NCBI GenBank assembly: GCA_028279315.1
Contig: JANQNZ010000057.1
Coordinates: 1-35,272, forward strand
DNA: 35,272 nucleotides
Direction: 5' to 3'
From: Rhodophyticola sp.
Lineage (GTDB): Bacteria > Pseudomonadota > Alphaproteobacteria > Rhodobacterales > Rhodobacteraceae
Shown: in pieces, positions 8,028 through 22,568 of the stretch
Numbering within the stretch: the stretch's first letter is position 1
How the letters are laid out: the number at the start of each line of letters is the position of its first letter
Notes under the pieces: generated by a model
Told to the model about the DNA's origin: nothing
Databases searched by the model: none
What the model saw: the letters and a program-made list of their open reading frames with translations, nothing else
Program-made: the position numbers and the translations under genes

Positions 8028-8993
8028 TCACGGAAGTAGACGAAAACTCTCCCCGAGCCAGGGCATTGCCGCAAGCCCCGGGTCCACAAAGTGATCCGCG
8101 ATCAACTCCCGCGCGATTGCGGCGATCTGATCCGGGATCTCCGCCGTCCAATCCTCCAGCGCGTAAAGCACAATCTGCCGGGCAAGCGGCGCGCCGGGCA
8201 GCGGGTGCGCATCGATCCCGCCCGCAAACCGGCCTGCGCGGAGAAGGCTGAGGGGCGTCGTGATTGTCCAAGCGCTGCCGCTGGCGACAAGTGCGGTAAT
8301 GGACTGGTTGCTGTCGAACTCAAACCGGTTGGGCGGGGTCAGCCCCTCTTTGGTGAGGTAATCCTCAATCTGCTGGCCCATCACCTGATCGGCGTCACGG
8401 CGGACAAGCGCCAGGGGCGCCAAACCGTCTAGCCCTGCGCCCATGTCATGCCCGCGCGGGACCGCCAGGATATAGGGGTCGGTCAGAAGCGGCAGGCTGC
8501 GGGTGCCAGGTGGCGGCGTACGCCCCGCGGCGCCGATGGCGATGTCGAGCTCGCGCCGCTCAATCTGCGCCTGAAGCGTGTGGCTTGCGCCCGTGTGGAG
8601 GTGGAAGGCGCAATTGGCCATGGTTTCGGCCAGGCGTTCGGTCAGGATCGGCGTGACCTCATTCTCGAAATCCTCGATCACGCCCAGGCGCAGGGAGGAC
8701 AGCCCAGAAAGGTCCAACGTGGTCACGTCGCGGAGCCCCTTGCGGAGCGCCTCAAGCGCGGTTTCGGCCCGGCGGAGGAAGGTCCGGCCCGCCGGCGTCA
8801 GCGTCATCGGGCGCCGGGAATGATCGATCAGTTCCACCCCAAGGGCGGCATCGAGGTTCTTCAGCTGCTGGGAGACCGCGGGCGCGCTCATTCCCAACCG
8901 CGCCGCCGCACCTGCGACGGAGCCGGTGCGGGCCAAGGCCTCGAACACCTCAAGCCCGCGCAGCGAGACACCTTTGAGCGGGCTATCGGCCAT
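8028..8993 (-). CDS. LysR-family transcriptional regulator
   Basis: 321 aa; N-terminal HTH: LRGLEVFEALARTGSVAGAAARLGMSAPAVSQQLKNLDAALGVELIDHSRRPMTLTPAG. Confidence 0.93.
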   Translation of the reverse strand: MADSPLKGVSLRGLEVFEALARTGSVAGAAARLGMSAPAVSQQLKNLDAALGVELIDHSRRPMTLTPAGRTFLRRAETALEALRKGLRDVTTLDLSGLSSLRLGVIEDFENEVTPILTERLAETMANCAFHLHTGASHTLQAQIERRELDIAIGAAGRTPPPGTRSLPLLTDPYILAVPRGHDMGAGLDGLAPLALVRRDADQVMGQQIEDYLTKEGLTPPNRFEFDSNQSITALVASGSAWTITTPLSLLRAGRFAGGIDAHPLPGAPLARQIVLYALEDWTAEIPDQIAAIARELIADHFVDPGLAAMPWLGESFRLLP

Positions 8994-9011
8994 AGGTGCG
9001 AACCGTCGGGC

Positions 9012-10037
9012 TCATGAGTTGATGATCCGTTCCAGAAGCATCTGCGGCACGGCGACGCCATCGGCCTCCGTCCGCTCCCGGGCGGCGTGTCTCCGGCTGC
9101 CAGGGAGGCGTGTGCCCTCCTCAGCGGTCAAGGCGGCGGTCAGATCGCTGAGCCGGTCGCCAAAGGCGCCGCCGGATAGCGCCTCGGTTTCAATCGCCAA
9201 GAAACACTGGCCGGTCCGAGGTGGCCCACCGATAGGGCCGGAGAAGGGGGAGGCGTCTTTCCCAAGGGTTGCACCCGCCAACGCGGCGGCGAAGACCTCG
9301 ACCATGAGACCCGCGCCAAAGCCTTTGTAACCGCCGGAGGGTGCCATGGACCCTTTGAGCGCCGCTTCGGCATCCGTGGTTGGATTGCCATTGGCATCGA
9401 AGGCCCAACCCGGTTCGATCTCCCGGCCTTCGCGCGCCCTCAACATGATCTCGGATTTCGCAATGGCGCTGGCCGATTGGTCGATGACAAACGCCGCGCC
9501 GCCCGTGCCATCTGGCGCTGCAAGCGCAAACGGGTTGGTGCCGATCACGGGCGTCTTGCCGCCCCACGGCGCGATGGAGGCGGGTGCGTTTGTAAAGCAA
9601 AGGCCGAGAAGTCCCGCCTCCGCAATCCGCTCCGCATGATGGCCCAGGACCCCGCAGTTATAGCTGTTATGGATCGTCAGCGCGGCCACTCCATGGCTTC
9701 TGGCCGCGCTGACAAGCGAGTCAAACCCCGCATCGATGGCCGGATGGGCAAAGCCGTCGCCCGCATCGACGCGGATCGCGGCGGGTTTTGGGTGGCGGAC
9801 CTCTGGCACCGCCTCACCCGCAACCTTCCCGACCCTGAGATGCTCCGCATAGATCGGGATATACATCAGCCCATGACTGCGAATACCGTCCCGTTCGGCC
9901 TGACGGGTGGAGCGGGCGACAGACGCAGCCGCGGTGGCGCTGGCGCCTGCCCGGGCAAGCGTGTCGCGGGCCAAGGCCTCCACATCGTCCAGGCTGAGCC
10001 GTTCGTCTATCTGGCGCTCATTCATACCCTCAGTCAT
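9012..10037 (-). CDS. Ldh-family (malate/L-lactate dehydrogenase type, Ldh_2) oxidoreductase
   Basis: ERDGIRSHGLMYIPIYAEHLRVG, NSYNCGVLGHHAERIAEAGLLGLCFTNAPASIAPWGGKTPVIGTNPFALAAP, GGYKGFGAGLMVEVFAAALAGA. Start placed at MTEGMNERQ (10037) rather than ORF-track 10142. Confidence 0.9.
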   Translation of the reverse strand: MTEGMNERQIDERLSLDDVEALARDTLARAGASATAAASVARSTRQAERDGIRSHGLMYIPIYAEHLRVGKVAGEAVPEVRHPKPAAIRVDAGDGFAHPAIDAGFDSLVSAARSHGVAALTIHNSYNCGVLGHHAERIAEAGLLGLCFTNAPASIAPWGGKTPVIGTNPFALAAPDGTGGAAFVIDQSASAIAKSEIMLRAREGREIEPGWAFDANGNPTTDAEAALKGSMAPSGGYKGFGAGLMVEVFAAALAGATLGKDASPFSGPIGGPPRTGQCFLAIETEALSGGAFGDRLSDLTAALTAEEGTRLPGSRRHAARERTEADGVAVPQMLLERIINS

Positions 10038-10647
10038 CCCCATCCACCGCCCCGGCACCGGCGCCAAAGGCCCGGGATTGTGCGGTCGCCGGGACCAACG
10101 TCTTCGCGGCAAGCGCGCCTGCTTGGGCCCAGGTGGCGTCATCGGGCGCTCTTCGCGGCTGGACTGCTGGCTTGATCACGCCAGGCGCCCCAAGACTGAG
10201 CCGGAGGATTTTGTCCTCCGGCGCGCGATGGGGTGCTCCCTCCAACGCCCCGGATGTCACGGTCGCCGTCAAGGCGCCCGACAGCACCAGAGTCTGACCG
10301 GTCTGGGCCGAGGCATAACCCGCCAGCGCCAGAACCAAATCCGGCGCGTCCGTTAACGCGAGAGAGACCGGGCCTTCCCCCGCCAAGACCAGATCAAGCG
10401 CCGCCGGTCCCGCGACGCCAGCAGGTGCCAGGCCGATTTGCCAGTCCCCCGGCGTGTCCTGGCGCGCCTCAACCGGGTCTGGCTTCGCGCCCAAGGCCGC
10501 CATGGCCACTCCGACGCCATCCCCGCCTTGGCTTGAGAGCCAGGCGGCGGCTTGGCCGAGGTCCTGGGCCAGCCCCAGGGGCCAGCCCGCGCCGCGGGCG
10601 GCATCGCTCATTCGTTTGGCGATTTCGTTGAGGGAAGGCGCTGTCAT
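10030..10647 (-). CDS. DUF3726-like protein
   Basis: 205 aa; MTAPSLNEIAKRMSDAARGAGWPLGLAQDLGQAAAWLSSQGGDGV; start overlaps the upstream stop by 4 nt, 8-nt overlap with Ldh gene. Confidence 0.6.
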   Translation of the reverse strand: MTAPSLNEIAKRMSDAARGAGWPLGLAQDLGQAAAWLSSQGGDGVGVAMAALGAKPDPVEARQDTPGDWQIGLAPAGVAGPAALDLVLAGEGPVSLALTDAPDLVLALAGYASAQTGQTLVLSGALTATVTSGALEGAPHRAPEDKILRLSLGAPGVIKPAVQPRRAPDDATWAQAGALAAKTLVPATAQSRAFGAGAGAVDGDD

Positions 10648-12341
10648 GCGGCCTCAGAGATCGGGGACCAGAGCGCCCAATCATCGGGGTTGGCCGTGGC
10701 GATATCGGTGGTCAGCGGCGCGCCCTGGCAGAGCGTGATCCGCGTCCAGCGGTCCGATTTTGGGTCGAACCGCGTGGCGCCGAAGAAGGCCAGTTTGAAG
10801 CGCAAAAGGTCGATCGGGCGGCAGGCCCGGCCGATCAGATTGTCGCGGATTTCGCCATAGGGATGATGGGCGATGCTTTGGACCCGGGTCACGACATGCC
10901 GCTCTTCGGGATGACGCATCAGGAAGGCGGCCACGCGGTCCTCGGGTTGGCCCTCATGCACCCTGCGCCACAGCTCTTGCACCTGCCGGGCGATATCCAG
11001 CGGGCTTTCCAACTCCGCCCCGGGCTCCTGGGCGCGGATACCAAGCCGCGGCTCGGACTTGTCCTCCGACACGTACCAGAATTGATGGGTTTCGTCGGGC
11101 CGCTCGAAATCGATCTTCAGCGCCCAATCATAGGCCTCCCGGATCAAACGCGAGAGGTCGGCCAGCGTCATACTTGGGTCGAGGCGGGGCGGCAGCCCGG
11201 TCTGCATCGTCCTGGCCAAATCGTCGATCAGGCCCCCATGGGGCTCCAGCACAACCGAGACCAGGCATTCCTGCGCCTCCAACCCGTAAGCTGAGGCCGC
11301 CAAGAGCAGGCCTTCCCAAGGCTTGGGCCCGGACAGGCTGCCAGTCCCGGTCAGGGCTTGGATGCCCAGAAGATCACCCCGAAGCTCCTGAATACGCACC
11401 ATCTGTATCTGGTCCTCCACCGACCAGCTGTCGGCATGGGCCATCGCCTGATCCAGCGCCGCCGCAAACCCCGCGCGCTGCGCAGGGGTGGCCCGTGGCA
11501 GGGCGCGGACGCGGGCCAGTGCGGTTTCCCGCGCATGGACCCAGGCATGGGTCAGTTCGGGATGGGTGACGAGAAACGGCGCCATCCCAAGCCCTGTGGC
11601 ATTGCCGATGCCCAAGATACGCTTGTTCTCATCCGAAAGTCGCGCGGCCCGATCTGGCGCTTGGGCCACTGCCAGATGCTCCACCAGGTCATGGGTGAAG
11701 GCCCGGATCAGCCAGACGGTCAGCATCTCGGCTTGAAAGGCGATCTCCAGCCCCGGACGTGCGGCAATTTCAGAGCGGTCCGCAATGCCGAATTTGCCAT
11801 TGCCGTACACCGCCGTGGTTCGCATCAGATAACCGGTTTCGATCAGCTTCTCTCGGTCAGGCTGATGCCCCGCGGCCAGCGCGTCGACCACATGGGCGAA
11901 CAGCCGCACACTCCGATTGGCACGGCTCAGCACCAATTCGCGCGACGTGAACCGGCCCGCCTCTTGCAGCGGTACATTGGCCCCAAGCCGGTCGAGATCG
12001 TCATGGGTTGGGATGCCGTCGAAAAGCGCAAATGTCGCGTCCCATTTCTCGGCAATCACCCGGTCGGTCCGCTCCTCCGGCGGCAAATGGTGCGACAAGG
12101 CGACAAGGGCGTAGGTATGTCCGCCGAGAGTGAGAGTATAGACCGCCCGGCCATAGCCCTCATCCGACATCTCCCAAAGCCGCCGGGTCACCACCACCTG
12201 ATCGGTGTGCAACCGCCGCATCAGGACACGGAGGAAGCTCAGCCGGGTGGGGAAGCTCGCACCCATGCGCGACAGCCGCATCACCTGGGCAGGCATACGC
12301 ATCGGGGCCAGGCCGCCCCCGGCCTCTGAGAACTCATCCAT
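10644..12341 (-). CDS. Conserved protein of unknown function (~565 aa)
   Basis: Continuous ORF; start set at MDEFSEAGGGLAPMRMPAQVMRLSRMGASFPTRLSFLR (12341), which overlaps the dipeptidase stop by 8 nt. No motif recognised. Confidence 0.75.
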   Translation of the reverse strand: MDEFSEAGGGLAPMRMPAQVMRLSRMGASFPTRLSFLRVLMRRLHTDQVVVTRRLWEMSDEGYGRAVYTLTLGGHTYALVALSHHLPPEERTDRVIAEKWDATFALFDGIPTHDDLDRLGANVPLQEAGRFTSRELVLSRANRSVRLFAHVVDALAAGHQPDREKLIETGYLMRTTAVYGNGKFGIADRSEIAARPGLEIAFQAEMLTVWLIRAFTHDLVEHLAVAQAPDRAARLSDENKRILGIGNATGLGMAPFLVTHPELTHAWVHARETALARVRALPRATPAQRAGFAAALDQAMAHADSWSVEDQIQMVRIQELRGDLLGIQALTGTGSLSGPKPWEGLLLAASAYGLEAQECLVSVVLEPHGGLIDDLARTMQTGLPPRLDPSMTLADLSRLIREAYDWALKIDFERPDETHQFWYVSEDKSEPRLGIRAQEPGAELESPLDIARQVQELWRRVHEGQPEDRVAAFLMRHPEERHVVTRVQSIAHHPYGEIRDNLIGRACRPIDLLRFKLAFFGATRFDPKSDRWTRITLCQGAPLTTDIATANPDDWALWSPISEAA

Positions 12342-13314
12342 CACAGCCGTCAAACACCCGGTCGAAATAGGACAGCCAATTTGTGCCCATGATGCCAGCG
12401 ATTTCGGATTTGTCGAATCCGACCGCGGCCAAGCCTCGGGCCAGGCCAGGAAAATCACGGTTGTCGTGGAAGAAGGCCGGTTGCGGCGGGAAGCCGGGAT
12501 TGGCGGCGGAGCCCTCGCCATAATCCACGTCTTTGGTCCAGCGCCCGCTGCGCATCCAGACCACCACGCTGTCGGGCTGGTCCTGGCACAAATCGGAGCC
12601 GATGCCGAGATGGGCGGCGCCATAGCGCTCTGCCGCCTCCGCGACCATCCGGCAGAAATTCTCAAGTGTGCACTCGGACCCGTCTTTCAGATGGTGCGGG
12701 TAAAGCGAAAACCCCAGCATCCCGCCGGTCTCAGACAGCGCCTTCAGCACCGTGTCGGATTTGTTGCGCCTTGCGGGGTGCCACCAATCAGGATTGGCAT
12801 GGGTGATGGCAATCGGTTGGCGGGACTGCTCAATCGCGTCCAAGGTCGAACGCTCCGCCGAATGGGACATGTCGATCACCATGCCAAGGCGGTTCATCTC
12901 GGCCACTACCTCTCGCCCCATCCGGGTCAGGCCGGGATCATAGTCTTCATAACAGCCCGTCGCCAGCAGGCTTTGGTTGTTATAGCTGAGTTGCATGACC
13001 CGAAGGCCAAGCCGGTGCAGGATCTCCAGAAGATCAATGTCGTCTTCCATGGGGGAGGGGTTCTGCGCGCCATAAAGAATGGCGGTCTTGCCCGACGCCT
13101 CCGCCGCACGGATATCCGCCGTGGTATAGGCATGGGTGATGAGGTTAGAATGGGCGGCGAAGCGGCGGTTCCACGCTTCCATCTGCAAGACCGTCTCCCG
13201 AAAGGTCTCGTGATAGGCGATGGTCACATGCACCGCCGTCAGCCCACCCTCGCGCATCTGGCGGAACACCGTCTCGGACCAGTTCGCATATTGTAGGGCG
13301 TCGATGCGGATCAT
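12334..13314 (-). CDS. Membrane dipeptidase (peptidase M19)-like protein with altered metal-ligand motifs
   Basis: MIRIDALQYANWSETVF...REVVAEMNRLGMVIDMSHSAERSTLDAIEQSRQPIAITHANPDWWHPARRN...HLGIGSDL...IMGTNWLSYFDRVF. Confidence 0.85.
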   Translation of the reverse strand: MIRIDALQYANWSETVFRQMREGGLTAVHVTIAYHETFRETVLQMEAWNRRFAAHSNLITHAYTTADIRAAEASGKTAILYGAQNPSPMEDDIDLLEILHRLGLRVMQLSYNNQSLLATGCYEDYDPGLTRMGREVVAEMNRLGMVIDMSHSAERSTLDAIEQSRQPIAITHANPDWWHPARRNKSDTVLKALSETGGMLGFSLYPHHLKDGSECTLENFCRMVAEAAERYGAAHLGIGSDLCQDQPDSVVVWMRSGRWTKDVDYGEGSAANPGFPPQPAFFHDNRDFPGLARGLAAVGFDKSEIAGIMGTNWLSYFDRVFDGCDG

Positions 13315-13419
13315 GGGGCGCGGCCCTCCCCCAGGCTGCCAAGGTCTGGGGAGTTCAGCAGAAAATGCGTTCACCCGGCAAGAAGAAATGGAGGCCGCGC
13401 GGCAGGCCGGGACCGTGCC

Positions 13420-14364
13420 TTACCCTTCAATCACCAGATCGGGGAAGCGGCCTGCGGTTTCTCGGATCAGTTGCGCCAACCGCCCATAAGCGGCGCCCGC
13501 GCCCGTGGCCGACCGCCAGACAAGCCCAATCGAGCGCGCAAAGCGGCGGCCGCGGAAGGGCCGTACGGCGACGTCCAGCGCCCGGCCTTCGATTTCGGAT
13601 TTCACATAGAGCGCCGGCAGGAAGGTGGCCCCCATCCCCATCGCCACCATTTGGCGCAGCGCGTCGAGCGACGTGCCCTCATAGTCGCGGGAGAGGTTTG
13701 CACCGGTCTCCATGCACAGGGCCGAGATTTGATCGTGCAGCGTATAGGCGGGTGAGAGCGACAGGATGGTCTGCCCAGCCAAATCAGGGCCGTCCAGCAT
13801 CGCCCGCTCGGTCAGCGGATGCTCCGTGGGCAGGGCCACGGACAGCGGTTCCCGAAACAGGCGCTCGATGGTCAGGGCCGCGCCAGAGACGGGGAGTTGC
13901 GTCAGGATCAGGTCGTGGACGCCGTCATTCAGCTCGCGCAGGAGATCGCGTGGGGCGGCCTCGCGGATGTAAAGCCGAAGGTCGGGATGGGTGCGGTGCA
14001 GATCGCCAACCACATGGGGCATCAGATAGGGTCCAAGCGTCGCAGAGGTGCCAAGGCGAATCGTGCCGCCCAAGCCCGATTGCAGCGTCACTGATAGGTC
14101 GAGAATCCCTTGCGTCGCATCCAGAATGTCCCGCGCGCGCTTTGACACTTCGCGCCCTGCAAGCGTCAGCCGCACCGGCCCGCGGCCCCGTTCGACCAAT
14201 GTGAGCCCCAGGGATTCCTCTAAGGTTTTGATCTGAACCGACAGTGAGGGTTGAGAAATCCCACAGGATTCAGCAGCTTCGCGGAAATGCGCCGTTTCTT
14301 CGAGCGCCACAAGATAACGCATCTGGCGGAGTGTCAGCGGCGGGACGGAGACGGGCATTGGCAC
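13420..14364 (-). CDS. LysR-family regulator, OxyR-like (paralogue 1)
   Basis: 314 aa; LTLRQMRYLVALEETAHFREAAESCGISQPSLSVQIKTLEESLGLTLVERGRGPVRLT; C-terminal TSLDALRQMVAMGMGATFLPALYV as in OxyR. Confidence 0.92.
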   Translation of the reverse strand: MPMPVSVPPLTLRQMRYLVALEETAHFREAAESCGISQPSLSVQIKTLEESLGLTLVERGRGPVRLTLAGREVSKRARDILDATQGILDLSVTLQSGLGGTIRLGTSATLGPYLMPHVVGDLHRTHPDLRLYIREAAPRDLLRELNDGVHDLILTQLPVSGAALTIERLFREPLSVALPTEHPLTERAMLDGPDLAGQTILSLSPAYTLHDQISALCMETGANLSRDYEGTSLDALRQMVAMGMGATFLPALYVKSEIEGRALDVAVRPFRGRRFARSIGLVWRSATGAGAAYGRLAQLIRETAGRFPDLVIEG

Positions 14365-14369
14365 ACGTT

Positions 14370-14386
14370 CTTAGTTTTTTACTATC
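14370..14386. promoter_or_regulatory. OxyR/LysR-type half-site-like motif upstream of OxyR-like paralogue 1
   Basis: CTTAGTTTTTTACTATC; reverse strand GATAG-TAAAAAA-CTAAG resembles the ATAG-N7-CTAT OxyR element with one imperfect arm. Confidence 0.35.
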
Positions 14387-14555
14387 AAATCTTCATATGC
14401 GATTGTGTTTTCCCTTTGCAAGCCCTGTGCCATATTCGATCTTGATCAAGGGGGATCACAACGGACATGTGGGCACGCGCGTGTTTGTTGTTGGTGGATC
14501 TGCTTTGCTGGTTGTCTAGTCCCTTCCAGCATTCACGGACTCGCAGAAACACCTT

Positions 14556-14608
14556 TTCGGATGACCCTGCTCCGGTCCCTGCCGTCAACCGGGGTGGGGT
14601 CATCCGAA
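14556..14608. other. Long nested stem-loop in intergenic region
   Basis: TTCGGATGACCC ... GGGTCATCCGAA (12-bp perfect arms) enclosing CCGGT ... ACCGG. Confidence 0.7.
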
Positions 14609-14611
14609 CCC

Positions 14612-14625
14612 TTGATTTAAATCAA
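14612..14625. promoter_or_regulatory. FNR/FnrL-type box
   Basis: TTGATTTAAATCAA, exact match to TTGAT-N4-ATCAA; inside 16-bp palindrome CTTGATTTAAATCAAG (14611-14626). Confidence 0.7.
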
Positions 14626-14766
14626 GACGATCGGTGGTGAATTGCTTTCGCGGGCGCTATGTGGCGCCGTCGGGATGTGCGTATTTTTGGAAAGATGAAG
14701 GTGGAGAAGGGCGTGTTTGTTTGCCGCCCGGCGATAGACTGACGCCCCACTTTCTATTGCTCCGCG

Positions 14767-15687
14767 TTAGTCGATGACTGTGACTTCGGGCGCGGTGTCG
14801 CGCAGGATACGGCGGAGGATTTGGGCAAGCTCGGCAAAGGCCTCCCCCCGCGCGGCGGTTTTGCGCCAGACCATGCCGATGGAACGGAACGGCACGGGGC
14901 CGGAGAGTGGGCGCGCGGTCACAAGCGTGTTGGGCCGCACTTCGGAGCGCACATAGAGCGCGGGCAGGAGGGAAATCCCCAGCCCCATCGCCACCATCTG
15001 CCGGATCGTATCCAGCGAGGTCGCCTCATAGTCAAGGCTGAGATCGGCGCCCACATCCTCGCAGATTTGTCGAATTTGCTCATGCAGGCGGTGGCCTGGT
15101 TCGAGGGTCAGGATTGTCTCGCCCCTCAATATGTCGCGGTCGATCTGCGTTTTTGCGGCAAGCGGATGGTCGGTGGCCATGACGGCCAGGAGTGGCTCCC
15201 GGAATAGGCGCTGGCTTTCCAGATCGGCCCGGGTGATCGGCAGCGGGAAGAAAAGAAGGTCAAGCGTGCCGTCGTCGACGCGCGCGAGGAGGTCGCCGGC
15301 CAGACCCTCGCGGACATAAAGCTTCAGGTCTGGATGACGCGCGTGAAGGTCAGGGATGACAAGTGGCAGAAGGTAGGAGCCAAGGGATTGCACCACGCCC
15401 ACGCGGATCGTGCCGCCCAACGGGTGCTGCCCTTGCTGCGCCAAGGCCTTGATGTCGTCCACATCGCGCAGGACGGCACGGGCGCGCGACGCGATCTCGG
15501 CCCCGGTTGGTGTCAAAACCACCCGCGCGCGGGAGCGTTCCACCAACTGGATGCCAAGCTTCGCCTCCAACTCCTTCAATTGTCCCGAGAGCGTTGGTTG
15601 GGTCACATGCGCCCGCTCTGCCGCGCGGCGGAAATGCAGCGTGTCGGCGACGGCGACCAAATAGCGGAGTTGTTGCAGGGTCGGCAT
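14767..15687 (-). CDS. LysR-family regulator, OxyR-like (paralogue 2)
   Basis: MPTLQQLRYLVAVADTLHFRRAAERAHVTQPTLSGQLKELEAKLGIQLVERSRARVVLTPTG; TSLDTIRQMVAMGLGISLLPALYVRSE. ATG at 15687 preferred over the upstream TTG at 15702. Confidence 0.92.
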   Translation of the reverse strand: MPTLQQLRYLVAVADTLHFRRAAERAHVTQPTLSGQLKELEAKLGIQLVERSRARVVLTPTGAEIASRARAVLRDVDDIKALAQQGQHPLGGTIRVGVVQSLGSYLLPLVIPDLHARHPDLKLYVREGLAGDLLARVDDGTLDLLFFPLPITRADLESQRLFREPLLAVMATDHPLAAKTQIDRDILRGETILTLEPGHRLHEQIRQICEDVGADLSLDYEATSLDTIRQMVAMGLGISLLPALYVRSEVRPNTLVTARPLSGPVPFRSIGMVWRKTAARGEAFAELAQILRRILRDTAPEVTVID

Positions 15688-15788
15688 GAGTTTGATCGGC
15701 AATCTCTATCAAAAACAGGTTTAGTTTCGATTGGATCAATCGGCAAGCCCGCTCTATGTCGCCTGCGAGGGAAATGGGGAGTGGGCGG

Positions 15789-16754
15789 ATGCAGCGCTTC
15801 AAGAGCATTTTGGCGCTATTGACCGAGGACAGCCTGCACGAGGTTGCGCTGGAGCGCGCCGTGCATCTGGCCAAGCTGAATGATGCCGCGCTGACCTTGG
15901 TCGATGTGATCGACGCGGCGCCGGGGGAGCTCAGTCGCCTTTGGTCGGCGATCCAAGGGGGTCGCGGGGCCGAGATCGAGGAAGATGTCATCGCTTATCA
16001 CCGCGACCGGCTGGCCAAACTGGCCGATAAGGCGCGGGGCGAAGGGGTTGAGGTCACCGAAGCTGTCTTGCAGGGCAGCACCTTTGTCGAAGTCATCCGC
16101 ATGGTTCTGCGCGAAGGCCATGACATGGTGATCAAAGGCGCGACGGCGGCGCCCCATGGCCGGGGGGTCTTGAAGGGCGTCGATATGCACCTTTTAAGGA
16201 AATGCCCGTGCCCGGTTTGGATGCTGAAAGGCCCGGGCGACGGGAATTTCGACACGATCCTGGCCACGGTCGATCCCGAACCCCATGGCGATGCGGCGCG
16301 GGACCGGTTGGATCGGATGGTTCTGGATCTCGCCACCTCGATGGCGGAGCGGGACAAAGCCGTTTGCCATGTGGCCCATGTCTGGCGCCTGCAGGAGGAA
16401 TATGCGCTGCGCCATGGCCGCTATACCTCCAAATACCAAGGTGAGGTCGACCGGATGGTTGAGCGGGAGAAGGATCAGGCCAGGGATCGGCTGGATGCGT
16501 TGATGGCCGATTACCCGCAGGTGAGCCGCGCCCATGTGCATATGATCAAAGGCCTGCCCGGCGACGCGATTGCGGAGTATGCCGAGGCGCACAAACCCGA
16601 TCTGATTGTCATGGGGACGGTGGGGCGCACCGGCATCAGCGGCTTCATCATGGGCAACACGGCTGAGACCATTCTGCACCGGGTCGATTGCGCGGTGATT
16701 GCGGTGAAGCCTGAGGGGTTCGTGTCCCCCGTGACATTGGAAAAAGCGGGCTAG
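15789..16754 (+). CDS. Universal stress protein, tandem two-domain
   Basis: MQRFKSILALLTEDSLHEVALERAVHLAKLNDAALTLVDVIDAAP...; C-terminal GTVGRTGISGFIMGNTAETIL UspA nucleotide-binding signature. Confidence 0.9.
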   Translation: MQRFKSILALLTEDSLHEVALERAVHLAKLNDAALTLVDVIDAAPGELSRLWSAIQGGRGAEIEEDVIAYHRDRLAKLADKARGEGVEVTEAVLQGSTFVEVIRMVLREGHDMVIKGATAAPHGRGVLKGVDMHLLRKCPCPVWMLKGPGDGNFDTILATVDPEPHGDAARDRLDRMVLDLATSMAERDKAVCHVAHVWRLQEEYALRHGRYTSKYQGEVDRMVEREKDQARDRLDALMADYPQVSRAHVHMIKGLPGDAIAEYAEAHKPDLIVMGTVGRTGISGFIMGNTAETILHRVDCAVIAVKPEGFVSPVTLEKAG

Positions 16755-16812: not shown

Positions 16813-19122
16813 GTGGCTGAGGCAGCAGGCTCTGTACCAAGAGTGGCGGGTGGACCCGCGGGGTGGATTTCGGTCCTGATCCCGGCGGCGATCTTTGCTT
16901 ATCTCGTGCAATTTGTGCCCCGCGTTGGGTCGGGTGAGGTCATTCTCTGGGCCTATGACTGGGTGCCCGCGCTTGGCATCCGGCTGTCGATCTTGCTGGA
17001 CGGGCTGAGCCTGACCTTCGCGCTTCTGATCTCGGGCATTGGCGCGCTGGTCACGCTTTATTCCACGAGATATCTGGGTAATCACCCGGAATACCCGCGC
17101 TTTGTCCTTTACCTTTTGGCCTTTATGGCGGGCATGTTGGGCTTGGTTCTGGCCGATAATCTAATCGCGCTTTTCGTGTTTTGGGAGATCACAACGATCT
17201 CCTCCTATCTCCTGATCGGGTTCAATTCCGATGAGGAGAAATCGCGCCGCTCGGCCCTTCAAGCCCTGCTTCTGACAGGCACGGGGGGCCTCGCGCTGCT
17301 GGCGGGCATGATCATGCTGGGCAATGTGGCGGGGTCGTTTGAGTTAAGCGTGATCCTGACCCAAGGCGATCTGATCCGGGCGCATCCGCTTTACGTCCCG
17401 ATCGTGATCCTGTTCCTGGCGGGCGCCTTCACGAAGTCCGCGCAATTCCCGTTCCACTTCTGGCTGCCGAACGCGATGGCCGCGCCGACGCCGGTTTCGG
17501 CATATCTGCACTCGGCGACCATGGTGAAGGCCGGGGTGTTCCTGATGGCCCGGATGAACCCCGCGCTTGGCAGCACCGATCTGTGGTTCTGGGCGCTGGT
17601 CATTGCGGGCGGGTTCACCACTGTCTTCGCCTCCATCCTCGCGATCCGGCAGACCGATATCAAACAGGTCCTGGCCTACACGACCCTGATGGCGCTGGGC
17701 GCGCTGACGCTCTTCATCGGCGCAGGCACGGCGGATGCGATCAAGGCGATGATGCTCTTCCTTGTGGTCCACTCGCTCTACAAAGCCGCGCTCTTCTTGA
17801 TGATCGGGATTGTCGATCATGAGACCGGCACGCGGGAGGCGCCGATCCTGCGCGGCCTGGGCCGGAAGATGCCGATCACCTTCTTGGGCGGCGCGCTCGC
17901 CGCGATCTCTATGGCCGGCATTCCGCCCTTCTTCGGCTTCATCGGCAAAGAGTTCCTCTACAAGGCAGGCTTGGAGATGGAAGTGGCGATGATCTGGATC
18001 ACCGGCACGATCTTCGCGGCCTCGGTCCTGATGTTCGCCGCGGCGGGAATCGCGGTCTTGCGCCCCTTCACCGGGCCTTTGGCCGAGACCCCGAAACCAC
18101 CCCATGAAGGGCCCTGGCCCATGTGGATCTGCCCGCTGATCCTCGGCGTCCTTTCGCTCGGCTTTGGGCTCTTCCCCGACTATGCCGAGACCTGGCTGAT
18201 CGCACCCGGAACCTGGGCGGTGTACGGCGATTACAGCTATGAGGTCGACATTTACCTGTTTGAAGAGGTGAACGCGGCCTTCATCCTGTCGCTCATCACC
18301 TTCGCGGTGGGCGCTTTTGTCTACGCCTTCCACCGCCCGCTTCGCGACTGGCTGGGCCGGGTCTTTGCGGCTAACCCGATCAAGTTCGACCCGGGCTGGG
18401 ACCAGGTCCTCGACGGGCTGAAAGCGCTGGCCCATTGGCAGACCCGGCATCTGCAATCGGGGGTCTTGCAGCGCTATCTCTTCACGATTTTCGCGACCTT
18501 GGGCGTCCTCGCCGCCTTCACCATCTGGTCGCGCGAGGCGTTGGCCTTCCAACTGGATCTGGCCGAGGAGCTGGACGGGCTTCTCTTCAAGCACTGGGCC
18601 GTCCTGCTTTTCATCACCGCCGGCGCGCTTCTGACTGCGCTCACGTCCAGCCGGATGACGGCCATTGCCTCCCTCGGCGTTGTCGGCATCGGTGTGGCGC
18701 TGATCTTCATCATGTTCTCCGCGCCCGATGTGGCGATCACGCAGCTTCTGGTCGAGACGCTGGTTGTTGTCTTGGTCGCGGTCGCCATGCTGAAACTACC
18801 GCATCTGGAAATCCGTGAGGGCCATCGCGATTGGCGTCCCTGGCACGCGGCGGTGTCGGTGCTGGTGGGGGTTGTCTCAACCCTGATCCTGATTGCGGTT
18901 CTGCAAGGCGATATCGACAGGCGCCTGACAGATTACTTCGAGATGGCAAGCTGGCCCGAAGCCTATGGGCGCAACATCGTCAACGTGATCCTGGTCGATT
19001 TCCGCGCGCTCGACACATTTGGCGAGATCGCGGTGGTCGTGATCGCGGCGCTCGCGGCCTACGCGCTGCTGCGCGGCACCCATTATGCGCGGCGCAAAGC
19101 GCCCGAGGAGGATGAGGCATGA
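16813..19122 (+). CDS. mrpA: Mrp-type Na+(monovalent cation)/H+ antiporter subunit A
   Basis: 769 aa; [52 protein letters not shown]-terminal MbhD/MbhE-like region; GTG start. Confidence 0.95.
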
Positions 19123-19541
19123 TGAACTCGCTGATCCTGAACGCCGCCACGCGGCTTTTGGTGGCGCTGCTGCTGCTCTTCTCGATCTATATGCTGCTGC
19201 GCGGCCATAACCTGCCCGGCGGGGGCTTCATCGGCGGGTTGGTGGGCGCCACGGGTTTTGTGCTTTACGCCATTGCCCATGGTTGCGGCGCGACCCGCGC
19301 GGCACTGCGGGTTGAGCCGCAGGCAATTGCCATGGTGGGCCTTGGCATCGCGCTCGCCGCAGGTGTCTTCGCAGCCTTTTTCGGTGATGCTCTTTTCACC
19401 GGCCAATGGCTTTTCATCGGCGCGACGGAGGAGGATTACGGCCTGCCGCTCTCCTCGGTCCTGGTCTTTGATATCGGCGTCTATCTGGTGGTCTTCGGGT
19501 CGATCCTGACCATCGTGCTGGCCCTGGAAGAGGAGGTCTGA
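19119..19541 (+). CDS. mrpB: Mrp antiporter subunit B
   Basis: 140 aa; [40 protein letters not shown] overlap with mrpA. Confidence 0.95.
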
Positions 19542-19548
19542 CGCGCCC

Positions 19549-19911
19549 ATGGAACTCCTCATCTCCATCATGGTTGGCGTGATGTTCGCCACCGGCACCT
19601 ATCTGATGCTGGCGCGCAATGTGCTGCGGTTTATCTTCGGGCTGATCCTGATCTCAAACGCCGCCAACTTGGTGATCTTCGTCGCCGGGCGTCTGACCGC
19701 GGAAAGCCCGCCGCTGATCCCCGATGGCGCCGATTTCCCGGCAGAGGTGGTGGCCAACGCGTTGCCGCAAGCGCTCGTTCTGACGGCGATTGTGATTGGC
19801 TTCGGCCTGTTCGCCTTCGCGCTGACGCTGGTCTATCGCGGCTATCAGTCCATGGGCACGCTCATGAGCGACCAAATGCGCCTGGCTGAGCCCCGGGAGG
19901 AGGATCAATGA
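19549..19911 (+). CDS. mrpC: Mrp antiporter subunit C (NuoK-like)
   Basis: 120 aa; LISIMVGVMFATGTYLMLARNVLRFIFGLILISNAANLVIF; PQALVLTAIVIGF. Confidence 0.95.
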   Translation: MELLISIMVGVMFATGTYLMLARNVLRFIFGLILISNAANLVIFVAGRLTAESPPLIPDGADFPAEVVANALPQALVLTAIVIGFGLFAFALTLVYRGYQSMGTLMSDQMRLAEPREEDQ

Positions 19912-21446
19912 GCTGGCTTCTGGCCGCGCCGCTGGTCATCCCATTTGCCACGGCGGTCCTGGCGTTCTTGTTCCGAAACGGGCCGGAGGGCCGGTGGATT
20001 TCCGTCATCGGGTCCGCTGCTTTGCTTGTGGCCTCCGGCCTCTTGATGCAGGCGGTTCTGGCTGAGGGCGTGGTCGCCGGCCAAATGGGTAATTGGCCCG
20101 CGCCGTTCGGGATCACGCTGGTCGCGGACCTTTTGAGCGCGGTCATGGTGGTGATCACCGGGATCACCGGGCTCGCGGTTGCCATCTACGCGCTTGCCGA
20201 TATCGAAGAGCGGCTGGAGAAACTTGGTTATCACGCGCTCTTCCAGGTGCTGCTGGCCGGCGTCTGCGGCGCCTTTCTGACGGGCGATCTCTTCAATCTT
20301 TATGTCTGGTTCGAGGTGATGCTGATCGCCTCTTTCGGTCTTTTGATCCTGGGCGGTCGGCGTCAGCAGCTGGATGGCGGGATCAAATATGTGACCATCA
20401 ACCTGGTCTCGACGATCCTGTTTCTGGGCGGGATTGGCCTGCTTTACGGGAAGACCGGCACGCTGAACCTGGCCGATCTGCATCTGGCGGTGCAGGAGGT
20501 GGACAATCAGGGCCTGCTGACCGTTGTGGCGGTGATGTTCATGGTGGCCTTCGGCGTGAAAGCGGCGGTCTTCCCGCTTTTCTTCTGGCTCCCTGCCTCT
20601 TACCACACGCCATCCGTTGCGGTTTCTGCGATTTTTGCCGGGCTTCTGACCAAGGTGGGGGTCTATGCGCTGATCCGGATGTTCACCTTGGTTTTCACGG
20701 GTGATGTGGACTACACCCACACAATCCTCCTTTGGATCGCGGGCTTCACCATGATCACCGGCGTTCTGGGCGCGGCCGCGATGAATGATTTCCGGCGTAT
20801 TCTGAGTTTCCATATCGTCAGCCAGATCGGCTATATGATCCTGGGCCTGGCACTTTACACCCCGCTCGCCATCGTCGGCGCGGTCTTCTACCTCGTCCAC
20901 CATATCATCGTGAAAGCGAACCTCTTCCTGGTGGCCGGCGTCGCCCGCCGCATCGCAGGCTCGACGGAGTTGAGCGCCATTGGCGGGCTTTATAAAACCG
21001 CGCCGGTCCTGGGCCTTCTCTTCCTGATCCCGGCTTTCTCGCTGGCGGGCTTCCCCCCGCTCTCGGGTTTCTGGGCGAAGTACATCCTGGTCAAGGCGAG
21101 CCTCGATCTGGAGATGTGGATCATCGCCGCGGTCGCATTGGTGGTCGGGCTTCTCACGATCTACTCGATGACAAAGATCTGGGGCAGCGCCTTCTGGAAA
21201 CCGCACCCGGCGGGGATGGAGCCAAAGCTGGGCAGCCTGACAACCCGCGACCGGACGGCACTAATCCTACCGATTGCCTCCCTTGCGGTTCTGACCTGCA
21301 TCATCGGCCTTTACCCCGAACCCTTCGTGCAATTCGCCGAACGCGCGGCGGAGCAGCTTCTGAACCCAACCGACTACGTGGCGACGGTGCTGGGCACTCA
21401 GGCCGGGGCGGCGGAGGGTCTGGCCTATTTGGAGGGCGGGTCATGA
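19908..21446 (+). CDS. mrpD: Mrp antiporter subunit D
   Basis: 512 aa; LLILGGRRQQLDGGIKYVTINLVST, FPLFFWLPASYHTPSVAVSAIFAGLLTKVGVYALIR. Confidence 0.95.
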   Translation: MSWLLAAPLVIPFATAVLAFLFRNGPEGRWISVIGSAALLVASGLLMQAVLAEGVVAGQMGNWPAPFGITLVADLLSAVMVVITGITGLAVAIYALADIEERLEKLGYHALFQVLLAGVCGAFLTGDLFNLYVWFEVMLIASFGLLILGGRRQQLDGGIKYVTINLVSTILFLGGIGLLYGKTGTLNLADLHLAVQEVDNQGLLTVVAVMFMVAFGVKAAVFPLFFWLPASYHTPSVAVSAIFAGLLTKVGVYALIRMFTLVFTGDVDYTHTILLWIAGFTMITGVLGAAAMNDFRRILSFHIVSQIGYMILGLALYTPLAIVGAVFYLVHHIIVKANLFLVAGVARRIAGSTELSAIGGLYKTAPVLGLLFLIPAFSLAGFPPLSGFWAKYILVKASLDLEMWIIAAVALVVGLLTIYSMTKIWGSAFWKPHPAGMEPKLGSLTTRDRTALILPIASLAVLTCIIGLYPEPFVQFAERAAEQLLNPTDYVATVLGTQAGAAEGLAYLEGGS

Positions 21447-21919
21447 ACCTTTTCACGCTCAATATCGCGCTCGCCATCGCCTGGGCGGCGCTGACCGGGA
21501 GTTTCACGCTCTCAGGCCTTGCCGTCGGATTCGGCATCGGCTCAGGCGCGCTTTATCTGGCCAAGCCGCTTTTCCCAGGCTCTGACCGGTATTTCCTGCG
21601 TGTCTGGCGTTGGATCAAACTGATCACGCTCTTCCTCTACGAATTGGTTGTCAGTTCGATCCAGGTGGTCTGGGACGTGCTGACCCCCACGCAACTCTCG
21701 AAACCCGGCATCATCGCCATGCCGCTTGATGCGAAGGGGGAGATGGAGGTGCTGCTGGTCACCAACCTGATCTCACTCACCCCCGGGACACTCAGCCTGG
21801 ATGTGAATGAAGCGAGCGACACGCTTTATATCCACGCCATGTTTGCCGATGACCCGGACGCGATCCGAAAGCAGTTGAAGGAAGGGATGGAGCGCTGGGT
21901 GATTGAGGCGATGGAGTAA
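21443..21919 (+). CDS. mrpE: Mrp antiporter subunit E
   Basis: MNLFTLNIALAIAWAALTGSFTLSGLAVGFGIG...LVTNLISLTPGTLSLDV; ATGA overlap with mrpD. Confidence 0.93.
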   Translation: MNLFTLNIALAIAWAALTGSFTLSGLAVGFGIGSGALYLAKPLFPGSDRYFLRVWRWIKLITLFLYELVVSSIQVVWDVLTPTQLSKPGIIAMPLDAKGEMEVLLVTNLISLTPGTLSLDVNEASDTLYIHAMFADDPDAIRKQLKEGMERWVIEAME

Positions 21920-21924
21920 GGCTC

Positions 21925-22236
21925 ATGGATATTCTGGACACAGCCATCAACATCTCTTTCGTTCTGGTCAGCTTGGGCGTTGTCTTCGCCTTTGTGCGTC
22001 TGATCAAGGGCCCAAGCCTGCCCGACCGGGTGGTGGCGCTCGACATGATGACGGTGCTGATCGTCGCCTTCTGCGGTCTTTTCGCGCTCCTCTCACGCGA
22101 GACGGCGTTTCTGGACGTGGCAATTGTGATGGCGCTGGTTGGGTTCTTGGCCACAGTTGCGCTGGCCCGGTTTGTGGAGCGGCGCGATGCGCGGATCGTC
22201 AATCGGGATACCCATGATGCGGAGGACGCGAAATGA
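21925..22236 (+). CDS. mrpF: Mrp antiporter subunit F
   Basis: 103 aa; VRLIKGPSLPDRVVALDMMTVLIVAF, ETAFLDVAIVMALVGFLATVALARFVE. Confidence 0.94.
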   Translation: MDILDTAINISFVLVSLGVVFAFVRLIKGPSLPDRVVALDMMTVLIVAFCGLFALLSRETAFLDVAIVMALVGFLATVALARFVERRDARIVNRDTHDAEDAK

Positions 22237-22568
22237 TCGGCGAGATCGCGCTGTCCGTTGTCGTCCTTCTGGGCGGGTTCTTCTGCTTTGTGGCGGGTCT
22301 TGGCGTTTTGCGCCTGCCCGATGTGCTGGTCCGGATGCATGCCTCGACCAAGGCGGGGACGCTTGGCAGCGGGCTGATCCTGATTGCGGTCGCGTTCCTC
22401 TTTGCCGATCTCGCGACAGTGACGCGTGCTGTTCTGACCATCGTCTTTCTTCTGATCACGGCACCGGTGGCGGCTCATATGATCGGGCGCGCGGCGTTCC
22501 GGTCGGGGGTGCCGACATGGAACACGAAGATCGAGGATGGGGTGGAGGAGAACCTCCGGCGGCGATAG
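22233..22568 (+). CDS. mrpG: Mrp antiporter subunit G
   Basis: 111 aa; GLGVLRLPDVLVRMHASTKAGTLGSGLILIAVAF, TAPVAAHMIGRAAF. Confidence 0.94.
   Translation: MIGEIALSVVVLLGGFFCFVAGLGVLRLPDVLVRMHASTKAGTLGSGLILIAVAFLFADLATVTRAVLTIVFLLITAPVAAHMIGRAAFRSGVPTWNTKIEDGVEENLRRR

Follow-up and report, generated by a model that had tools for sequence, protein, structure and literature searches.

Two neighbouring LysR regulators, OX1 and OX2, encoded in a 35,272-nucleotide stretch of Rhodophyticola sp. DNA (hereafter the window), appear to combine the fold and DNA site of OxyR with the absence of its peroxide switch. In the reading that we favour, with a probability of roughly 65%, OX2 would control the divergent usp-mrp genes and OX1 a divergent structured RNA, both in response to a signal other than peroxide. 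This reading is built on four observations, namely the absence of the sensor residues from both proteins, the linkage of their genes, the conservation of their predicted operators and the structure of the RNA. A previous sequence-only reading had recognised the unusual sensor region of the two proteins but overlooked their context, that is the divergent usp-mrp genes, the conserved OxyR-type operators and the structured RNA lying between OX1 and OX2.

OxyR-like proteins devoid of Cys199

Both genes are carried by the minus strand. OX1 (13420-14358) likely starts at the ATG at 14358, with a GTG at 14364 as an alternative, and OX2 (14767-15687) likely starts at the ATG at 15687, with a TTG at 15702 as an alternative. 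Both proteins harbour complete HTH_1 and LysR_substrate domains that score above the cut-off. They share 38-41% identity with OxyR from E. coli, their nearest solved structures by sequence (HMMER alignments) are OxyRs, and their scores (207 and 238 bits) fall short of the 329-bit cut-off of the NCBIfam OxyR equivalog (NF008361). The best fold match in the PDB of the AlphaFold model of OX2 (mean pLDDT 88.9) is OxyR from Pseudomonas aeruginosa, and the regulatory domain of this model resembles that of reduced OxyR from E. coli (TM 0.92, normalised by target length).

The translated regions corresponding to Cys199 and Cys208 of OxyR read AYTLHDQISALCMETGA and GHRLHEQIRQICEDVGA. The Cys199 position is occupied by a threonine in OX1 (minus strand, codon 13741-13743) and by an arginine in OX2 (15088-15090), while a cysteine is found at the Cys208 position of both (minus strand, codons 13714-13716 and 15061-15063), as the translations and alignments indicate. 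No cysteine was found at position 199 of either protein by HMMER alignment with solved OxyRs or by MAFFT alignment with OxyR from E. coli, nor at that of OX2 in its AlphaFold model, in which R200 opens a helix (200-212) that also includes C209. The sequence-only reading, which had placed these residues by eye, was thus right on the missing Cys199, on the retained Cys208 and on every codon; it had proposed that a structure-based alignment could overturn it, and the model places R200 at this position. A misalignment concealing Cys199 is ruled out by the agreement of several alignments and the model. Furthermore, the threonine of the peroxide pocket, Thr129, is replaced by a proline in OX1 and by an alanine in OX2. 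OX2 contains a single cysteine in total and OX1 only two, one of which belongs to the DNA-binding domain.

A group of paralogues distinct from canonical OxyR

Searches of genomes of the family and of named genomes yielded 46 related proteins, mostly Rhodobacteraceae paralogues, which were analysed together with 30 canonical OxyRs. In the resulting tree, the two sets are separated by a branch with 100/100 support, OX1 and OX2 lying on the other side from canonical OxyR. The tree is unrooted and fits both a loss of Cys199 in the group and its acquisition by canonical OxyR. Cys199 and Thr129 are both present in all 30 canonical proteins and both absent from all 46 members of the group. In the 14 OX2 orthologues, residue 199 is an arginine (8), a lysine (4), a glutamine (1) or a threonine (1). 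Its absence from all 46 relatives and the conservation of an Arg or Lys in 12 of these 14 orthologues indicate that the lack of Cys199 results neither from chance nor from a sequencing error. Cys208 is kept by 37 of the 46 members and replaced by Ala, Thr, Ser or Phe in the other nine, including three whose genes are linked to Mrp genes (L098, L114 and L103). This group nevertheless shares many features with the OxyRs from E. coli, P. aeruginosa (4x6g) and Corynebacterium glutamicum (6g1d): a LysR fold, an ATAG-N7-CTAT site, Arg266 and, in most members, Gln203. It differs from them by the absence of Cys199, the replacement of Thr129, its position on the other side of the unrooted tree and the lack of a katG gene adjacent to OX1 and OX2; in the OX1 branch, His198 has moreover given way to a tyrosine or a phenylalanine. 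Among named relatives, OX1 and OX2 are found in tandem in Boseongicola sp. H5, R. porphyridii and Roseobacter sp. HKCCD6576-2.

The genome probably also keeps a normal, two-cysteine OxyR. Indeed, katG is located on another contig (G000:C54), where it is divergent from a gene truncated by the contig end (G000:C54:3-206, L253), whose 65 N-terminal residues are 66% identical to canonical OxyR. An absence of canonical OxyR from the genome is therefore rejected. The search for a third OxyR proposed earlier therefore succeeded in part: a canonical-type N-terminus was found beside katG, and it likely belongs to a protein carrying both cysteines, the sensor region of which lies beyond the contig end and thus outside the assembly. 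A canonical OxyR is also encoded by 18 of the 28 genomes searched, all of which were chosen because they carry a member of the group. No PF00199 catalase was detected in the genome (89% complete), and no catalase or peroxidase gene was recognised in the window. The lack of such a gene next to OX1 and OX2, previously held to argue against a standard OxyR function, is thus real in the window but makes a weak argument; the OxyR gene beside katG is a separate one and probably canonical.

Linkage to a universal stress protein and an Mrp antiporter

On the plus strand, OX2 faces a gene encoding a tandem universal stress protein (15756-16754, conserved start probably near 15789), which is UspE-like but scores below the NCBIfam cut-off. 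It is followed by a complete operon encoding a seven-subunit Mrp cation/proton antiporter (16813-22568), also on the plus strand: mrpA (16813-19122), mrpB (19119-19541), mrpC (19549-19911), mrpD (19908-21446), mrpE (21443-21919), mrpF (21925-22236) and mrpG (22233-22568). Conserved divergent gene pairs are the usual layout of LysR regulators and their targets, and Mrp complexes are involved in Na+ and pH homeostasis. All 14 members of the OX2 subclade, which come from many genera, are encoded divergently from mrpA, usually with the usp gene in between, and OX1 itself faces mrpA in several genomes devoid of OX2. This type of Mrp is encoded by 17 of the 121 genomes sampled in the family. In nine of these 17, a regulator of the group lies beside the operon (one gene further off in G063); next to the other eight operons, neither a regulator of the group nor any other conserved regulator was seen. 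Among the canonical oxyR loci of the named-genome scan, none is flanked by an mrp gene. No relevant report of an Mrp-linked LysR regulator was found in the literature searched.

The neighbours of the OX1-branch members that are not linked to Mrp are varied, and a single conserved neighbourhood was looked for without being found. By eye, four of them (L100, L113, L120 and L101) adjoin formate dehydrogenase-, TRAP transporter- or DabA-like genes, and these differing neighbours suggest that the OX1 branch has diversified. In the window, OX1 is followed by a block (8028-13374) encoding a LysR regulator, an Ldh2 dehydrogenase, a DUF3726 protein, a Pfam-less protein of 606-673 aa and an M19 dipeptidase, parts of which recur after OX1 in relatives. 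Elsewhere, an unrelated LysR regulator (L212 / L255, G047:C40; 29% identity to OX2) is divergent from another mrpA, by a PstS-like gene.

Predicted operators

An OxyR-type dyad, ATAG-N7-CTAT, is conserved in the sequences upstream of the genes of the group. With at most one mismatch, it is found in all 14 OX2-linked, 9 of 11 OX1-linked and 15 of 19 OX1-unlinked regions, and in 8 of 29 canonical regions, among which all four perfect matches come from Methylomonas. In the window, the predicted operator upstream of OX2 (15692-15712, TTGATAG-N7-CGATCAA) shows one mismatch to the extended consensus TTGATAG-N7-CTATCAA, and that upstream of OX1 (14368-14388, TTGATAG-N7-CTAAGAA) shows two. A second conserved box, ATTGATCCAATCGAA, is located upstream of OX2 at 15726-15740, 31 bp from the first box (start to start); among OX2 orthologues, a ATTGNNCAATCGAA-like box recurs at a distance of exactly 31 bp in every case that the pattern recognises. 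Throughout the genome, the extended consensus, the source alignment of which contained the window itself, has only two matches with at most two mismatches, the two operators described above, which suggests that OX1 and OX2 may govern a very small and local regulon.

A conserved structured RNA beside OX1

The core of a conserved structured RNA (14457-14608, plus strand; core bounds rather than mapped ends) is separated from OX1 by roughly 100 bp that contain the operator, and is best read divergently from this gene. A covariance model built from six sequences and used to search 395 genomes of the order matched 19 of them, most of which had contributed no sequence to the model. The RNA lies directly upstream of OX1 in each of the 22 loci examined, with OX2, mrpA or a phosphatase gene beyond. 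With eight sequences, the plus-strand fold displays compensatory changes in 24 of 43 pairs, a value reached by none of 500 shuffles, and all slid controls are far lower; with the 21 distinct sequences, double compensatory changes affect 40 of 52 pairs.

A minus-strand leader of OX1 including a pseudoknot was considered and rejected, as the plus strand fits better for both consensus energy (-78.6 versus -49.8) and wobble counts, the ratio of G-U to A-C cells being 148 to 38 on the plus strand and 60 to 97 on the minus strand. The plus strand also folds better in 20 of the 21 sequences, and the proposed pseudoknot, which shows no compensatory change, brings no evidence of its own. The RNA includes a near-invariant segment, GUCCCUUCC, which looks anti-Shine-Dalgarno-like. 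Its 3' hairpin resembles an intrinsic terminator, since several relatives carry a run rich in T after it (for example CCCGGGTCTCTTTTTCC in L289); the T tail in the window is weak and was not flagged by a simple terminator scan. No match to any Rfam family, including OxyS, was obtained at E values up to 1. The RNA is conserved and apparently previously undescribed.

Proposed mechanism and alternative explanations

The constant placement of mrp and the RNA opposite these regulators suggests that OX1 and OX2 probably control them rather than peroxide defence. In the proposed mechanism, OX2 would bind the conserved two-box site of the OX2-usp intergenic region, where it would both repress its own gene and switch usp-mrpABCDEFG, the operon running divergently from it. 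The trigger would be a signal other than peroxide, linked to the balance of cations or pH and sensed in a remodelled pocket, where an Arg or a Lys takes the place of Cys199. OX1 would act likewise on the divergent RNA and, in genomes devoid of OX2, on mrp itself. The eight sampled Mrp operons that lack a regulator of the group and the varied neighbours of the Mrp-unlinked members of the OX1 branch speak against this mechanism. We infer the binding of DNA by both proteins, the direction of regulation, the transcription of the RNA and the signal; a cation or pH signal is probable given the role of Mrp, a link that rests on the neighbouring genes. By extension, OX1 and its RNA may form an oxyR/oxyS-like module answering cations, pH or a metabolite, with the RNA as a new family of trans-acting sRNAs, alongside the control of the Mrp antiporter by OX2; we hold this extension tentatively, at somewhat less than even odds.

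The absence of Cys199 and the replacement of Thr129 throughout the group make canonical disulfide sensing of peroxide unlikely, in good agreement with the sequence-only reading. It is very improbable that OX1 and OX2 are ordinary OxyR peroxide sensors whose working cysteine pair lies elsewhere and was missed by misalignment. Their identity to OxyR from E. coli would fit such sensors, but the number and location of their cysteines contradict them, the sequence and structure comparisons agree, and both scores are well below the OxyR cut-off. The same earlier reading had offered a small ligand or one-cysteine chemistry instead. A signal other than peroxide, which may be a ligand, is indeed favoured here, and one-cysteine chemistry appears less likely as a general mechanism. 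This chemistry would involve the oxidation of Cys208 to sulfenic acid, the peroxide response being wired to usp-mrp and the RNA. It has a precedent in OxyR from Deinococcus radiodurans (DR0615), a peroxide sensor that uses a single cysteine and regulates catalase (PMC2225504). By our own reading of the primer used to mutate C210 in that study, FDQVMHW-C-ADAGF, this residue falls at the Cys208 position; one-cysteine sensing therefore is still a candidate for OX1 and OX2, which like DR0615 have a cysteine only at this position of the sensor region, and the cysteine at this position is kept by most members of the group. However, unlike this reported sensor, nine of the 46 members, three of them Mrp-linked, are devoid of Cys208, which argues against an essential thiol; Thr129 is replaced in every member, and a buried small residue may persist merely for packing. 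We therefore regard this explanation as unlikely for the locus.

An equally unlikely alternative is that these proteins are metabolite-sensing LysR regulators, whose placement beside mrp would be historical and whose main targets would lie elsewhere, for example in the Ldh2/M19 dipeptidase/DUF3726 block downstream of OX1. The diverse neighbours of the Mrp-unlinked members of the OX1 branch and the presence of Ldh2 and LTTRc genes after OX1 in many relatives speak for it, but it accounts poorly for the invariable linkage of the OX2 subclade to Mrp across many genera and for the fact that the genome holds only two strong operator sites, which lie upstream of OX1 and OX2 themselves.

Comparison with known systems and implications

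The control of Mrp by a LysR regulator would have a functional parallel in NhaR from E. coli, a LysR protein also encoded beside a Na+/H+ antiporter gene. However, the antiporter is of another type and nhaR lies downstream of nhaA in the same direction instead of being divergent; orthology is ruled out by an identity of just 23-28% over partial alignments. The arrangement of OX1 and the RNA recalls that of oxyR and oxyS in E. coli, where oxyS is divergent and its start lies 96 bp away from the start codon of oxyR, a distance similar to that observed here, although the RNA beside OX1, unlike OxyS, has no Rfam match and its transcription is only presumed. In Alphaproteobacteria, LsrB is likewise a second LysR regulator besides OxyR (PMC11975290); as compared by description, it differs from OX1 and OX2 by its thiol switch, which involves several cysteines, and it has been reported only from Rhizobiales.

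Similarity searches are likely to designate such proteins as peroxide regulators, a label that is probably wrong. The locus makes it possible to test how a regulator scaffold swaps its input while its DNA site stays the same, and the RNA may be its most novel part. Should the more tentative extension of the favoured reading hold, OX1, OX2 and the RNA would constitute a circuit of two regulators and one RNA that serves the ion homeostasis of Rhodobacteraceae.
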